Of a DNA stretch of 6,766 nucleotides, positions 603-6,766 are shown in pieces. Where the stretch lies: contig JALWSI010000101.1 of assembly GCA_027080315.1 (NCBI GenBank), positions 1 through 6,766 on the forward strand. Reading direction: 5' to 3'. Both the position numbers and the translations under genes were made by a program. Under the pieces are notes generated by a model. It ran no database searches and had not been told where the DNA came from. It saw only the letters and a program-made list of their open reading frames with translations. Each line of letters opens with the position of its first letter. Positions within the stretch are counted from its first letter, which is position 1. The DNA comes from a bacterium. Its GTDB lineage: Bacteria; Thermosulfidibacterota; Thermosulfidibacteria; Thermosulfidibacterales; JALWSI01.

Positions 603-1010
603 ATGGACTGCATATTTTGCAAGATAGTTAAGGGAGAGCTTCCCTGCGAGAAGGTGTTAGAGACAGAGAATGTGCTGGCCTTCATGGATCTCTACCCTGT
701 GAACAAAGGGCATGTGCTGGTTATTCCCAAAAAGCACTACTTCAGGCTTGATGAGATAGACAACCCTTCGCTGCACCAGATGATAGAGGCTGCCCAGAGA
801 ATCGCCTCTGCCCAGGTGTATGCCCTGAGCGCCGAGGGATACAACTTGCTCATGAACAATGGAGAGGTGGCAGGGCAAGAGATTCTTCACGCTCACCTGC
901 ATGTTATTCCTCGGTTCTCTAACGACCAGATGCGCTTTGGCTGGAGGCATCTTGAGTACAGCGAGGGTGAGCTTGCCCAGTACGGCCAGAGGTTAAGAGA
1001 GTCCCTTTGA
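603..1010 (+). CDS. HIT-family nucleotide hydrolase/transferase
   Basis: This is a 135-aa histidine-triad protein, the usual length for single-domain bacterial HIT/Hint proteins. Such proteins hydrolyse nucleoside phosphoramidates, AMP-lysine or dinucleoside polyphosphates in the cytoplasm; the exact substrate cannot be read from sequence. The triad is HAHLHVIPR with H96, H98 and H100, the middle of these histidines normally being the nucleophile. The upstream NLLMNNG..AGQ segment (81-91) is the usual phosphate and ribose contact region. The N-terminal CIFCKI (C3, C6) is the common zinc-binding pair of this subgroup. The GHVLVIPKKH segment (36-45) supplies a conserved strand and a likely further zinc ligand, H45. 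The ATG follows GGGAGGAG (591-598). The gene is divergent from era, and the next gene starts 18 nt after its stop, so the two are probably cotranscribed. Confidence 0.94.
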   Translation: MDCIFCKIVKGELPCEKVLETENVLAFMDLYPVNKGHVLVIPKKHYFRLDEIDNPSLHQMIEAAQRIASAQVYALSAEGYNLLMNNGEVAGQEILHAHLHVIPRFSNDQMRFGWRHLEYSEGELAQYGQRLRESL

Positions 1011-1028: not shown

Positions 1029-2426
1029 ATGCCTGAGATACGCTTTGGCACCTCGGGATGGAGGGCCGTTATTGCCCAAGACTTCACCTTTGACGCCGTC
1101 AGGCTGGTAACAAAGGCCATTGCCCTTCATCTCAAGAACCACGGCCACAAAGGGGAAGAGGTGGTAGTGGGCTACGACACCCGGTTCTTAGGAGACCAGT
1201 TTGCTCTGGAGGCTGCCCGGGTTCTCAAATCTGAAGGGCTTGAGCCTGTGCTTAGCCATCGCGATGTACCCACCCCTGTTGTGGCCTACGAGATTGTGCG
1301 ACGGGGTGCCGCAGGGGGAATCAACATCACCGCAAGCCACAACCCTCCAGAGTACAGCGGAATAAAGTTCTCGCCGGCTCAAGGGTGTCCTGCCCCTGTT
1401 GAGGTGACAGCCGAGATTGAGGAGATAATCGCAGGGCTTCAGAGACAAGGTGGGCTCTCTGTTCCGGCTGAAAATATCGCCACCCACGATTTCGCCCCTG
1501 CCTACTGCAACAGGGTTAAGGAGCTAATTGACTTTGATGCTCTCTCACAACGGCCCCAAAAGGTGGCCTACAACCCCCTTTGGGGCACGGGACGGGACTA
1601 CGTTGACAGACTCTTGAGAGAGGCGGGGTGGCAGGTTGATTGTGTTCACTGCAAGGTGAACCCCGGCTTTGGGGGCAGACGCCCCGAGCCCAGCCCCTCA
1701 GAGATGCCCGATTTCGTTGAGATGCTCTCTGCTGGCCATTACGCCCTTGGCCTTGCCACAGACGGAGACGGGGATCGCTACGGGGTGATTGACTCAGACG
1801 GAGGCTTCATACCTCCAAACCAGGTGCTGGCCTTGCTCTTTCACTATCTCATCACCCAAAGGGGCTTTGAAGGCGGTGTGGCGCGCTCTGTGGCCACCTC
1901 TCATCTGGTTGACAGGGTGGCCTCGTTTCACAACCGTGAGGTTTACGAGACCCCTGTGGGCTTCAAGCACATCGCAAAATACATAATGGATGGCACCGTG
2001 GCCATTGGGGGAGAGGAGAGCGCCGGGCTTACCATAAAAGGGCATGTGCCAGAAAAAGACGGCATAATTGCCTGCCTGCTGCTGGCAGAGATGGTGGCGA
2101 AGACGGGTGCGTCCCTCAATAAGCTTAGAGACGAGCTTTTTGACAAGGTGGGCAGGCTATATTCAGAGCGGGTTGATATTCCTCTATCTTCTAAGAGAAT
2201 TGACGAGATAAGAGACCGGCTTAACGAGGTTGAGAAGATTTTTGCCCACAGGGGGGTTGACCATCTCACCTCTCTTGATGGTAGAAAAGTGGTGTTTGGC
2301 GATGGGTCGTGGGTGCTTTTCAGACCGTCGGGGACGGAGCCTGTGGTTCGTTTTTATGCAGAGGCGGCTTCAGAGGATGTGTTGAAGGGGTTGATTGAGG
2401 AGGGTATAAGGTGGCTGAAGGGTTGA
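1029..2426 (+). CDS. Alpha-D-phosphohexomutase (phosphoglucomutase/phosphomannomutase type)
   Basis: This 465-aa cytoplasmic enzyme should interconvert hexose 1- and 6-phosphates, feeding sugar nucleotide, glycogen or cell-envelope glycan synthesis. The four-domain family hallmarks appear in order: N-terminal FGTSGWR (6-12), active-site phosphoserine loop TASHNPPEYSGIK (S103), Mg-binding loop DGDGDR (245-250), sugar-specificity loop GEESAG (328-333) and C-terminal phosphate-binding loop RPSGTEP (432-438). The length matches bacterial PMM/PGM-type enzymes. GEESAG occurs in phosphoglucomutases and PMM/PGM enzymes, which argues against a dedicated GlmM. Whether glucose or mannose phosphate is preferred cannot be decided here. 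The start has a modest GGAG (1018-1021) 7 nt upstream and directly follows the HIT gene. A strong ribosome binding site for a further, apparently decayed frame lies inside the last codons (2397-2404). Confidence 0.93.
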   Translation: MPEIRFGTSGWRAVIAQDFTFDAVRLVTKAIALHLKNHGHKGEEVVVGYDTRFLGDQFALEAARVLKSEGLEPVLSHRDVPTPVVAYEIVRRGAAGGINITASHNPPEYSGIKFSPAQGCPAPVEVTAEIEEIIAGLQRQGGLSVPAENIATHDFAPAYCNRVKELIDFDALSQRPQKVAYNPLWGTGRDYVDRLLREAGWQVDCVHCKVNPGFGGRRPEPSPSEMPDFVEMLSAGHYALGLATDGDGDRYGVIDSDGGFIPPNQVLALLFHYLITQRGFEGGVARSVATSHLVDRVASFHNREVYETPVGFKHIAKYIMDGTVAIGGEESAGLTIKGHVPEKDGIIACLLLAEMVAKTGASLNKLRDELFDKVGRLYSERVDIPLSSKRIDEIRDRLNEVEKIFAHRGVDHLTSLDGRKVVFGDGSWVLFRPSGTEPVVRFYAEAASEDVLKGLIEEGIRWLKG

Positions 2427-2759: not shown

Positions 2760-4514
2760 ATGAGTAGGAAGTGGATAAGCGGTTTGCTAGCGTCTCTCTT
2801 CGTTGTGGCGCTATTAGTGGCTGTTCCCGCCCACAAAGCACAGGCGGTGATCAGCATTGAGCCCACAGGAGAGACCCCGGGAGATGTTGCTATCTTCCCC
2901 TTCTACGATGTTAGCTCAGACACAAAGTACAACTACTTTTATCTGGTTAACACCACAGGCTACTGGATTCAGGTGCACCTGCGCTTCAGGACCATGGAGT
3001 GTTCCATTGAGTGCCTGGACTTTGATGTCATCATGAGCCCCTACGATGTGTTTGTCTTCTGGGTGATGCCTGACATTGATGGCCTTGGCCCTGGGTTCTA
3101 CAGCGACGACAGCAACACAATAGACTACTCCGGGCTTATGCCTGCGGATTGGAAGTCGGGGAGTCCCACCATTGCCAAGACCCCATTTGACGACTCCCGT
3201 CTGCTTGATCTGCACATCAGTCAGGACGATACTCAGGAGATGCTGAAGAAGGGCTATGTTGAGGCCATAGTTGAGGGTCTTATTGACAAGACCTTCTGGA
3301 CCAAGTGCGGTCCTTTCAAGAGCCTTCTGGCTGCTGCCAAGACCGATGCTGCTGAAAGCTGCAGTTGGGACAAAGGTCAGAGTGGTACTTGGGCAAAGAT
3401 GGGTGGTGACCTTGATAACGTTGGTAAGGCCGGTCATTATTGGAACGGCACAGCCTGGAATACGGTGGGCGATGATAACATTCAAGACGGCACCATCATC
3501 TTTGGAAACGAGTACTTCTTGGACTTTGCCGCCCTCACCGGTTACGGGGTGAACGCCGCCACCATTACGGGCTTCAGGGTGTACAACAGTACTGATGATA
3601 CTGTTCAGGGGACTCCTGCAAACGTTACTCACATTGACGATAACTTCACCTACGCTGCTTTTGGGTCTGTTAGGAGTGGGTACAACGGGTTGATCTTGCA
3701 TCCCGATTACTATGCAACTTACACCAATGACGATAACCCCTACTTCAGGCCTGATTGGGCAACCACCTTTGGTCCCACCCTTGCCTTTGGTGACGACTTT
3801 GACAACTACACCCCAACCGTTTACGGAAGCGTGGATGATATTGAAGAGAACTTTGCTACTTACATGATGGACTCTGGTAGCCGCTATGCTGCCCACTACC
3901 TCTCTGACCTCAGCGGTGTTTACACCTATGTGCTGCTCAACTTCTTCACCAAGCACTACCACTACTTTGTGAAGCTGCTTTACGATCCCGCTGTGGCCAC
4001 CACCTTTACACATGGATACAGAGGAGCCACTGGTAGCTATGTGAGCGTGAACCGTAAGGTTGACACCGACTACAACTTCAACCTGCCAGCTATTGCTCCC
4101 TGCAACACCGACTACTGGAATGTGAAGTTCAGGTTCTTGGCCTACGACATCTCTGAGAACGTGCCTCCGGGCCAGGTCTCACCGGGAACCCTGGTGAGCT
4201 TCAATCAGGAAGCCGAGCTGCTTGCAGTTGGTCCCGGCGCCGACAAGCTGAACACCGGCAGCTTCGTGAACGGCTGGTTCAAGCTGGGTGGCTTTGTGCT
4301 GGATATTGACAGCGCAAGGGCCGACAAGGCTGCAAGTGCAACAGGTTCTAAGGCTCAGTGGGATATCGGCAACCTCTACGACGATCCGCTTGATGCTTCT
4401 ACACGCTACATCTTTGCCATTGGCTACTCCTATGTGGATATCCCCGGCTACGGCCAGTGGAAGTGGGATCTTACCATCTTGGATAGCCCCAAGGGTCCCT
4501 CGCCCCAGCCGTAA
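2760..4514 (+). CDS. Exported array protein 1, SIEPTG family, function unknown
   Basis: This 584-aa protein has a Sec signal peptide: basic start MSRK, hydrophobic core about residues 8-22, and cleavage expected after A29 (AHKAQA|VISIEPTG). The mature protein is soluble-looking, acidic and rich in Tyr, Phe and Asp. It has no second membrane segment, lipobox, sorting signal or heme motif. Blocks shared with the 608-aa neighbour are SIEPTGETPGDV (32-43), YFYLVNTT (59-66), LDFDVI plus SPYDVF (86-98), KGYVE (164-168), CGPFKSL (183-189), ESC.WDK (199-205), GYGVNAATIT (261-270), NPYFRPDWATTFGPTLAFG (326-344), NFFTKHYHYF (394-403), FNLPA.APC (440-448) and VGPGAD..NTG (490-500). Cysteines 81, 183, 201 and 448 are conserved between the two, and C85 is extra. 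From memory, the core resembles a widespread proteobacterial secreted family of unknown role. It is probably periplasmic, surface or extracellular, possibly structural. The strong AGGAGG site implies good translation. Confidence 0.9.
   Translation: MSRKWISGLLASLFVVALLVAVPAHKAQAVISIEPTGETPGDVAIFPFYDVSSDTKYNYFYLVNTTGYWIQVHLRFRTMECSIECLDFDVIMSPYDVFVFWVMPDIDGLGPGFYSDDSNTIDYSGLMPADWKSGSPTIAKTPFDDSRLLDLHISQDDTQEMLKKGYVEAIVEGLIDKTFWTKCGPFKSLLAAAKTDAAESCSWDKGQSGTWAKMGGDLDNVGKAGHYWNGTAWNTVGDDNIQDGTIIFGNEYFLDFAALTGYGVNAATITGFRVYNSTDDTVQGTPANVTHIDDNFTYAAFGSVRSGYNGLILHPDYYATYTNDDNPYFRPDWATTFGPTLAFGDDFDNYTPTVYGSVDDIEENFATYMMDSGSRYAAHYLSDLSGVYTYVLLNFFTKHYHYFVKLLYDPAVATTFTHGYRGATGSYVSVNRKVDTDYNFNLPAIAPCNTDYWNVKFRFLAYDISENVPPGQVSPGTLVSFNQEAELLAVGPGADKLNTGSFVNGWFKLGGFVLDIDSARADKAASATGSKAQWDIGNLYDDPLDASTRYIFAIGYSYVDIPGYGQWKWDLTILDSPKGPSPQP
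3735..3790 (+). repeat. Near-identical 56-nt block shared by array genes 1 and 2 (copy 1)
   Basis: This block encodes the NPYFRPDWATTFGPTLAFG region of protein 1. It matches 5559-5614 in protein 2 with a single silent difference (T at 3755 against C at 5579). Synonymous positions are conserved here far beyond the rest of the pair, suggesting recent gene conversion or strong constraint on the nucleotide sequence. Confidence 0.85.
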
Positions 4515-4530
4515 CCTGAAAGCGATTTAC

Positions 4531-4553
4531 GGGGCGGTCTCAAAGGCCGCCCC
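4531..4553 (+). terminator. GC-rich hairpin between array genes 1 and 2, no T-tract
   Basis: GGGGCGGTC pairs with GGCCGCCCC (9 bp including one G-T wobble) around a 5-nt loop, 16 nt after the stop of the first array gene. The sequence after it is TTGTGAAGGAAG, not a run of T, so it is a poor intrinsic terminator on the plus strand. It is more likely a partial terminator or an mRNA-stabilising 3' hairpin, with readthrough into the next gene, which starts 39 nt further on. No separate promoter is evident in the 78-nt gap. Confidence 0.5.
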
Positions 4554-4592
4554 TTGTGAAGGAAGAAAAAAGGTTTAGAAGGAGGAAAGAGT

Positions 4593-6419
4593 ATGAGCAG
4601 ATGGTTCAAGAGGTTGGCCGTACCTGCGCTGGCGGTGCTGATGGTTGGAATGTTCATCAGCTCTGCTCAGGCGGTAAGGTCCATAGAGCCCACCGGGGAG
4701 ACCCCGGGAGATGTGGTGATCTATCCCTACTACGATGTGAGTGCCGCCACCAGCCTCAACTACTTCTATCTGGTGAACACCACAAAGTTTTACCTGCAGG
4801 CGCACATGAGGTTCAGGACGGCAGAGTGTTCAATAGAGGTTCTGGACTTTGATGTGATACTAACTCCCTACGATGTGTTCACCTTCTGGGTGTTGCCTGA
4901 GGTGACTGATGCAGACGGGATCACCGGTCCTGGTTTTTACAGTGCCGATGCCCACACATTGGCAGTTAGTGGGTTGATCCCCAGCAAGTACTTTGACAGC
5001 AATGGGTATGTTACCATAGCCTTCAACACCCGCAGGCTGCTTGATCTGCATATAGCTGCTGACGATGCGGCGGATATGCTGCCCAAGGGCTATGTTGAGG
5101 TGATAGCGGAGGGGTTGATTCAGAGTGATTTCTGGTCCAACTGTGGTCCCTTCAAGAGCCTTGTGGCTGCTGCAAACGCCGACTACGCTGAGAGTTGCAC
5201 CTGGGACAAGAACAATCCCAGTGGCGTCTTCTCAGATTCAGACGCCATATTCTATGGTACAGGTTATGATAAAGCTGGGGTTGATCATGTGGGTAAGACC
5301 ACCAATGGAAAAGATGGGTACACCCGCATAGACAACGGCGAGTTGCTGTACGGCACCGAGTACTTTGTGGACTTTGCCAGTGCCTCTGGTTACGGCGTGA
5401 ATGCTGCAACCATCACTGCTTTCAGAACCTCTGACAACGACTCCGACTACGACAGGCACATTGATGACAACTATACGGCACCCGGCACTAAAGTGCCCAG
5501 CGGTTACAACGGCCTCATTCTTCACGCCGACTATGTTGGCAGTGACATGACCAATGGTAACCCCTACTTCAGGCCTGACTGGGCAACCACCTTTGGTCCC
5601 ACCCTTGCCTTTGGCGATGACATGGACGCTGAGGCTGCAGGTGTCCGACTGGTGTACGGCAGCGTGGATGACCTTGAGGAGAACTGGTACGCCAACATGA
5701 TGAACGAGAACAGCCGTTACACTGCACCCTACTTCAGCACCAATCAGGCTGATAGTCTCATCACCTACCTTATGCTCAACTTCTTCACCAAGCACTACCA
5801 TTACTTCACCAAGCTGCTCTATGATCCATATCGCACCACCTACAACACCCACGGCACCTCCTCTTCGGCTTTGGACAGGCTGGTTGACAACGTTTACAAT
5901 TTCAACCTGCCAGCCGTAGCTCCCTGCGGCGGTAGCTTCTGGAATGTGAAATTCAAGTGGACTGCAAGGGACACCGACGAGCACACGGTGCCTGGAACAG
6001 CATCACCTGGCAAGCTGCTTTCCATAACCCACGAGGCCATGTTTGAGGCTGTGGGTCCTGGAGCAGATCTGCTCAACACCGGTACCTTCAGCGAGGGCTA
6101 CTACCTTGTGGGCGACTTTGAGCTTGACCACGACGATGCCAGGGCAGAGCAGACTTGCACAGGTGACTTTATAGGCATAAACAATGATGGGAGCGGTGCC
6201 GGCTGTGAAGAGATCTACGATGTAAAAGAAGACGCGGTTGATGATATCAACTTTGTGCCCGCCATAGGCTTTGATGTGATCAGGGTGAGTGGAGTTGGCG
6301 ACTACGAGTACGATCTCACAATCTACAACTCACCTTGGGCCACTGTTGCCTTCAATCCTGCCAACAATCTCACCAACGCCAGGCAGGAGGGCAACGGCAC
6401 GGCGCCTGCTGCTCCGTAA
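4593..6419 (+). CDS. Exported array protein 2, SIEPTG family, function unknown
   Basis: This 608-aa paralog of the preceding protein starts after AAGGAGG (4579-4585, 7 nt spacing). The signal peptide is residues 1-27 (MSRWFKR, hydrophobic core 8-22, cleavage SSAQA|VRSIEPTG). The shared blocks come in the same order: SIEPTGETPGDV (30-41), YFYLVNTT (57-64), LDFDVI plus TPYDVF (84-96), KGYVE (165-169), CGPFKSL (184-190), ESC.WDK (200-206), GYGVNAATIT (266-275), NPYFRPDWATTFGPTLAFG (323-341), NFFTKHYHYF (396-405) and FNLPA.APC (437-445). Cysteines 79, 184, 202 and 445 match the paralog. C522 and C538 flank an Asn/Asp/Gly-rich loop (GINNDGSGAG) that is absent from protein 1 and could be a disulfide-closed or metal-binding insertion. 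The protein ends in a longer Asn/Ala/Pro-rich tail (588-608) without an anchor. It is probably cotranscribed with protein 1, and an intrinsic terminator follows it. Function is unknown. Confidence 0.9.
   Translation: MSRWFKRLAVPALAVLMVGMFISSAQAVRSIEPTGETPGDVVIYPYYDVSAATSLNYFYLVNTTKFYLQAHMRFRTAECSIEVLDFDVILTPYDVFTFWVLPEVTDADGITGPGFYSADAHTLAVSGLIPSKYFDSNGYVTIAFNTRRLLDLHIAADDAADMLPKGYVEVIAEGLIQSDFWSNCGPFKSLVAAANADYAESCTWDKNNPSGVFSDSDAIFYGTGYDKAGVDHVGKTTNGKDGYTRIDNGELLYGTEYFVDFASASGYGVNAATITAFRTSDNDSDYDRHIDDNYTAPGTKVPSGYNGLILHADYVGSDMTNGNPYFRPDWATTFGPTLAFGDDMDAEAAGVRLVYGSVDDLEENWYANMMNENSRYTAPYFSTNQADSLITYLMLNFFTKHYHYFTKLLYDPYRTTYNTHGTSSSALDRLVDNVYNFNLPAVAPCGGSFWNVKFKWTARDTDEHTVPGTASPGKLLSITHEAMFEAVGPGADLLNTGTFSEGYYLVGDFELDHDDARAEQTCTGDFIGINNDGSGAGCEEIYDVKEDAVDDINFVPAIGFDVIRVSGVGDYEYDLTIYNSPWATVAFNPANNLTNARQEGNGTAPAAP
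5559..5614 (+). repeat. Near-identical 56-nt block shared by array genes 1 and 2 (copy 2)
   Basis: This is the partner of 3735-3790, with one silent mismatch in 56 nt. A second, shorter shared tract of 27 identical bases lies over the LNFFTKHYH codons in both genes (around 3945 and 5775). Such tracts could serve as recombination points between the tandem copies. Confidence 0.85.
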
Positions 6420-6442
6420 GCTCATAGGCTAAAAACTCATAG

Positions 6443-6470
6443 GGCGGGGAGAAATCCCCGCCTTTTTATT
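6443..6470 (+). terminator. Intrinsic terminator after array gene 2
   Basis: A perfect 8-bp stem GGCGGGGA / TCCCCGCC closes a GAAA tetraloop and is followed directly by TTTTTATT. It lies 23 nt past the stop codon. This is a textbook Rho-independent terminator and marks the end of the transcript carrying array genes 1 and 2. A short direct repeat CTCATAGG (6421-6428 and 6436-6443) precedes it. Confidence 0.93.
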
Positions 6471-6651
6471 TGGTTAGCCAGGCGTGGTGCCATTAGGTGG
6501 GCAGTGGTGGTTTAGGGGTATCTTCTATTCATATTGTGCCTGCTACTTGATCAAATTGCGCTTGCGTTCTGATTAGAGATGAGGTAAATGGGTTTTATGC
6601 TTGTGAGGCGAATAGGATGAAGGTTCATCAATAACTCAAAGGAGGGTCTGT
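6471..6651 (+). promoter_or_regulatory. Intergenic region before array gene 3, promoter expected
   Basis: Because a strong terminator closes the preceding unit, the third paralog needs its own promoter in these 181 nt. No strong sigma70 pair stands out. The best I can find is TTGCGT (6562-6567), a 17-nt spacer and TAAATG (6585-6590), each with only 3 of 6 consensus matches. A strong AAAGGAGGG (6638-6646) sits 5 nt before the ATG. I see no RNA gene here. Confidence 0.4.
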
Positions 6652-6766
6652 ATGAGAAGAGGAAAGTGGTGGTTGAGCGGGTTGATGGTGGTCATTATGG
6701 CTTTTGCCATGGTTGTTGCCACCCCTGCGAAGAGGGCTCAGGCGCTTTCTATTGAGCCCACGGGAG
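6652..6766 (+). CDS. Exported array protein 3, SIEPTG family, N-terminal fragment
   Basis: Only 38 codons lie inside the window. They encode a Sec signal peptide (MRRGKWW, hydrophobic core about 8-24, cleavage expected after A31 in AKRAQA) followed by the mature start LSIEPTG. The same SIEPTG sequence directly follows the signal peptide in the two upstream proteins, and the preceding xxAQA cleavage site is also shared. This identifies it as a third tandem paralog even though most of the protein is missing. The start is supported by AAAGGAGGG immediately upstream. The gene is expected to be about 580-610 codons long if it resembles its neighbours, and the array may continue further right. Confidence 0.85.
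   Translation, partial: MRRGKWWLSGLMVVIMAFAMVVATPAKRAQALSIEPTG

Follow-up and report, generated by a model that had tools for sequence, protein, structure and literature searches.

NpdA forms the S-layer of Paracidovorax citrulli, as demonstrated by deletion, proteomics and cryo-EM (PMC10765051). The npdA gene is located downstream of ~12 gsp genes for type II secretion, in a neighbourhood described as 'largely conserved', and Comamonas odontotermitis is listed among the npdA carriers (PMC10765051). NpdA has been described in the Beta- and Gammaproteobacteria, including Delftia, Paracidovorax, Comamonas and others (PMC10765051, PMC3110197). Some 110 orthologs are counted for NpdA (WP_011797163). 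Slr4 (EAR28894) of Pseudoalteromonas tunicata is another proven S-layer protein, the gene for which lies near a T2SS cluster (PMC7821379). The locus described here is, with reasonable probability, a tandemly expanded and divergent set of NpdA-type surface-layer proteins, predicted to form a lattice and encoded apart from the usual secretion cluster.

The stretch of DNA analysed (the window) is the whole of contig C101 (JALWSI010000101.1, 6766 bp), which ends inside ORF C; the MAG from which it derives is 1.84 Mb in 253 contigs, 94% complete and 2.8% contaminated. The features of the window are listed in Table 1. No gsp cluster is found beside the array and the genes to the left are of the housekeeping type; from general knowledge of the families and their motifs, these were taken to encode an Era protein, a HIT-family protein and a phosphomannomutase/phosphoglucomutase-like enzyme. 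The original prediction had described two complete and one partial exported paralogs arranged head-to-tail, and this arrangement is present as claimed, with A and B sharing 51% identity over 605 aligned residues (535 bits, BLASTP). A, B and C each open with a Sec-type signal peptide whose last residues are A-x-A, and the common mature N-terminus that had been noted reads (V)xSIEPTGETPGD in A and B and LSIEPTG in C. The ribosome binding sites that had been reported are readable upstream of the three genes as aggagg, aaggagg and aaggagg. The description of the products as aromatic and acidic was also borne out, mature A and B having a pI of 4.32 and 4.24 and an aromatic content (FWY) of 15.7% and 13.9% respectively, while no hydrophobic stretch was detected by hydropathy beyond the signal peptide in A or B. 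The A-B pair is probably co-transcribed.

Table 1. Coordinates of features in the window, with exporter and family-member loci of relatives in the last row.
Feature	Position	Strand	Basis
era GTPase gene (presumed), 3' part lost at contig end	1..504	-	translation (GRPNVGKSTLLN...)
HIT-family protein gene (presumed)	603..1010	+	translation, HLHVIPR motif
phosphomannomutase/phosphoglucomutase-like gene (presumed)	1029..2426	+	translation, TASHNP and GTEP motifs
ORF A, 584 aa exported protein, NpdA-like N-terminal region	2760..4514	+	ORF translation, BLASTP, profile comparison
signal peptide of A (MSRKWISGLLASLFVVALLVAVPAHKAQA)	2760..2846	+	read from translation; hydropathy
A: NpdA-type homologous region, mature N-terminal beta domain and GYVE motif	2847..3290	+	profile comparison
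GC-rich hairpin in A-B spacer, without T tract	4531..4553	+	sequence; spacer near-identical in C202
ORF B, 608 aa exported paralog of A	4593..6419	+	ORF translation, BLASTP
signal peptide of B (MSRWFKRLAVPALAVLMVGMFISSAQA)	4593..4673	+	read from translation; hydropathy
terminator-like hairpin and T tract after B	6441..6464	+	also 3' of C202 and C253 copies
ORF C, first 38 codons of third paralog, A-like, cut by contig end	6652..6766	+	ORF translation, genome protein search
ABC-2 exporter, Wzt and family-member loci	L171:408-1925; L144:4782-5639, 7911-9263; L145:4939-5733, 7726-9579, 14325-15545		

A search of the proteins of the same genome, as the original prediction had proposed, identified five substantial copies in addition to C. 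On contig C202 (3393 bp), an A-like gene that lacks its 5' end (A') precedes a complete B-like gene of 626 aa (B'), matching the window in order and orientation. The A-B spacer and its short flanks are identical between C202 and the window in 98 of 104 columns, and the hairpin-plus-T-tract located 3' of B is identical in the two contigs. Contig C253 terminates within another B-like gene, the third (B''), which lies before tRNA-Pro and a SurA/PpiD-type isomerase gene (ppiD), then pyrR and pyrB, the last two named by reading of the sequence. Amino-acid identity is 72% for A/A', 89% for B/B' and 88% for B/B'', and 50-56% between A-type and B-type proteins. The same gene order and the near-identical spacer in C202 make it probable that A and B were duplicated together on at least one occasion; B has one further copy. 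ORF C has an A-like leader and may supply the start that A' lacks; if it does, the genome has a minimum of five genes. A scan of the same genome with a wider profile detected no further divergent copies. C101, C202 and C253 would appear to form one array; some contig ends lie in stretches that are identical between copies, which is where a real array would break the assembly.

Sequence searches of Pfam, NCBIfam, PHROGs and the PDB returned no family for A or B, and neither SLH nor CWB2 cell-wall-binding repeats were found in Pfam and NCBIfam; the proteins had been predicted to have no enzyme motif or anchor, and both the lack of matches in the libraries (Pfam, NCBIfam, PHROGs) and the lack of a late hydrophobic segment agree with this. 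No relatives of the array proteins were found in viral contigs and phages. In a profile search, a single relative was identified in the same order, a protein of 504 aa encoded in genome G002 (JALVZS010000039.1, MAG T10_metabat1_scaf2bin.053), which carries a second paralog; the contig from G002 was the only match in scans of genome contigs, and nothing was matched in the seven other sequenced members of the order. G002 is likely to be from a deep-sea vent, because its MAG follows a naming scheme used by a study of vent deposits (PMC9793634).

When the G002 protein was used in tblastn, matches were obtained to a 'cell surface protein' encoded on a plasmid of Comamonas odontotermitis (E 1e-4) and to proteins encoded on Nitratiruptor plasmids. 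A single small gene separates the Comamonas gene from a gspE-F-G-...-M-...-D cluster upstream of it. Given this neighbourhood and the listing of the species among the carriers, the product was presumed to be the NpdA ortholog and stood in for the NpdA sequence itself in all comparisons. A profile of the five copies from the window genome matched G002 (hhalign probability 98.0, E 2e-13), the Nitratiruptor plasmid protein (probability 93.9, E 1.6e-7) and the Comamonas protein (probability 92.8, E 4e-7, 144 columns, residues 15-176 of B). As controls, the best of 60 shuffles of the Comamonas protein gave E 0.02, and unrelated exported proteins gave probabilities <1%. Compared directly, A matches the Comamonas protein only weakly (E 0.6 by tblastn against the plasmid collection; BLASTP E 0.001 with an assumed database size), the criterion of PMC10765051 being full-length homology or BLASTP-level orthology. 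BLASTP aligned the G002 and Comamonas proteins along almost their entire length. Serine-rich neighbours from Nitratiruptor were at first included in the family alignment and were dropped as non-homologous. These profile comparisons show the N-terminal ~150 residues of the array proteins to be homologous, as judged by sequence, to NpdA-type proteins, and the array proteins are part of a broad superfamily for which none of the libraries searched has a model. The earlier description of 'unknown function' is thereby narrowed. A distant branch with the N-terminal module (ATLLLPYFEVD...LDFxxxLTGYDV) was observed in two large genomes, G090 and G360 (L144:7911-9263 and L145:7726-9579), the two proteins sharing 33% identity.

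Over the C-terminal ~400 residues the proteins are for the most part lineage-specific. The C-terminal half of the window genome's copies gave no signal against single relatives; against a profile of six relatives the probability was 7% with a score of 29.2, a score reached by none of 200 column shuffles (maximum 27.4), and the blocks LNFxTK / D..E / SPG / GY are collinear. These data weakly suggest that the C-terminal half may also be homologous to, and collinear with, that of the relatives. AlphaFold models made with three sequences were too poor for a structural reading (pLDDT 28.7 at full length and 49 for the N-domain); the low-confidence model of the N-domain has six strands, as in a small beta-sandwich, and Foldseek returned nothing significant for it.

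The neighbourhoods of the relatives contain recurrent genes. In four lineages the family gene adjoins a homologous small lipoprotein (BLASTP E 3e-4 to 5e-9 in five of six pairs), for which the representatives (L031:7813-8334, L029:3278-3727, L028:3361-3729 and L023:962-1474) have no significant Pfam match and which is a candidate partner for S-layer assembly or secretion. A profile of this lipoprotein found no match in the window genome, in a search that had no positive control. A PPIase gene lies near the family gene in Nitratiruptor, Comamonas and, on a weak Pfam match, G002; G002 and Nitratiruptor also have S8 peptidase genes nearby. A Nitratiruptor plasmid of 35 kb (L169:1-35300, NZ_AP023064.1) encodes two NpdA-type paralogs, each with a PPIase and a small upstream gene in the position of the lipoprotein, together with a T2SS, an S8 peptidase and glycosyltransferases, and looks like a portable S-layer island. 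Genes for ABC-2 (Wzm-like) exporters occur near family members in G090, in G360, where Wzt is also encoded, and near the second paralog of G002, and an ABC permease/ATPase pair adjoins the Comamonas gene. The recurrence of ABC-2 exporters suggests a connection with O-antigen of the kind seen in S-layers anchored to LPS. Exported proteins of ~270 aa encoded near the family gene in two lineages (L031:640-1431 and L023:91-942) are homologous to each other (BLASTP E 9e-11) and have no Pfam match. In the window genome, secretins are encoded on three contigs, on one of which a T2SSF gene follows.

As the MAG is fragmented, with 2.8% contamination, and the contigs are unlinked so that the joins are unproven, the additional copies on C202 and C253 could derive from a related strain or a contaminant and stand outside one array. 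C101 by itself, however, contains A and B in full and the first part of C, the contig ends within copy-identical sequence are expected of a real array, and a mixture of strains is judged unlikely because copies that are 72% (A/A') and 89% (B/B') identical are too divergent for strain variants. The set might alternatively be antigenically or functionally diversified, with different copies deployed one after another, or as a defence against phage and grazers. There are several copies, and their differences cluster in three stretches (alignment columns ~211-260, 301-345 and 571-600) where loops vary in length and sequence. The B copies (window 4593-6419; L012:1392-3272; L016:8526-9896) are also mosaic, their third-position identity falling from ~1.00 near the ends to as little as 0.53 in mid-gene, and this suggests recombination or gene conversion between copies. 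Nevertheless, dN/dS (NG86) is 0.19 for A/A' and 0.18-0.20 among the B copies, which argues against overall diversifying selection and indicates purifying selection. Each gene whose start is visible also has its own start and ribosome binding site, and neither silent cassettes nor invertible promoters were noticed, although there was no dedicated search. On account of the dN/dS of ~0.19 the antigenic-variation reading, which the original prediction had offered, was set aside as very unlikely; the length-variable loops do exist, and some diversification of exposed loops may occur.

A more serious, if somewhat doubtful, alternative is that these are exported surface or matrix proteins, such as an adhesin, biofilm matrix or sheath, which share the NpdA-type N-terminal module and form no regular lattice. 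The strong match is confined to the N-terminal ~150 residues, the C-terminal ~400 being largely lineage-specific, and the module also occurs in G090 and G360 within proteins of a very different kind; yet the C-terminal halves give a collinear signal that was not reached by shuffles, and the other relatives retain an S-layer-like genetic context. A family of secreted enzymes appears highly improbable: the proteins are secreted, large and aromatic-rich with possible disulfides, and the N-domain model gave weak Foldseek matches to glycosidases (E 0.58 or worse), but these are not significant, the model is poor and no family was matched in Pfam, NCBIfam, PHROGs or the PDB. The interpretation offered in the original prediction was supported in part. 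Its 'abundant structural or surface material', in the form of a layer, fits the NpdA-type N-terminal homology, the lack of an enzyme family or anchor and the codon adaptation of the array genes, for which CAI is at percentile 73-91 among 589 ORFs, moderately raised and not extreme, and Nc is low (reference set of three motif-identified genes, EF-G, AtpD and GroEL; codon statistics covering 0.82 of the 1.84 Mb).

On the preferred reading, that of a tandemly expanded NpdA-type surface-layer set, A and B would be exported by Sec, would probably cross the outer membrane via a type II-like secreton encoded elsewhere, and would build an S-layer or S-layer-like coat at the cell surface. The framework for assembly or anchoring would be supplied by the N-terminal beta domain together with the C-terminal blocks, both conserved, the loops of variable length would form the exposed surface, and A and B may work together. 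A more specific and only tentative proposal is a multi-component S-layer of A-type and B-type NpdA-like subunits, with genes that were amplified in tandem and separated from an ancestral secretion cluster; if true, this would be a two-subunit bacterial S-layer based on the NpdA fold. The profile links carry the NpdA-type N-terminal module to plasmids of the Campylobacterota, to the lineage of the window and to other lineages, provide testable S-layer candidates in uncultured bacteria, and supply candidate partner genes for cultivable strains, namely the small lipoprotein, the PPIase, the S8 peptidase and the O-antigen exporter.

With respect to known systems, Slr4 resembles the array proteins by description only, being likewise exported, of comparable size, annotated as hypothetical and free of Pfam domains; it may work alike, but is predicted to be an RsaA-like beta-helix. 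The members from G002, which belongs to the order of the window genome, and from the plasmid of Nitratiruptor YY08-26 have the N-terminal module in common with the array, and more than one paralog is found in each; their genes cluster with a small lipoprotein, a PPIase and an S8 peptidase, joined on the plasmid by a T2SS, whereas the window array is located among housekeeping genes. The array differs from npdA in consisting of tandem multicopy A-B pairs with no adjoining gsp cluster, in occurring in a lineage outside the Beta- and Gammaproteobacteria and in its divergent C-terminal region; its lattice is predicted, that of NpdA proven. Like NpdA, however, the array proteins are exported with a Sec signal peptide and have no transmembrane anchor and no Pfam family, their C-terminal blocks appear weakly collinear, and their N-terminal region is homologous to that of the presumed Comamonas ortholog through the motifs GDxxIxPYY..., NYFxxVNT, LDFxVxLSPYD and GYxE.
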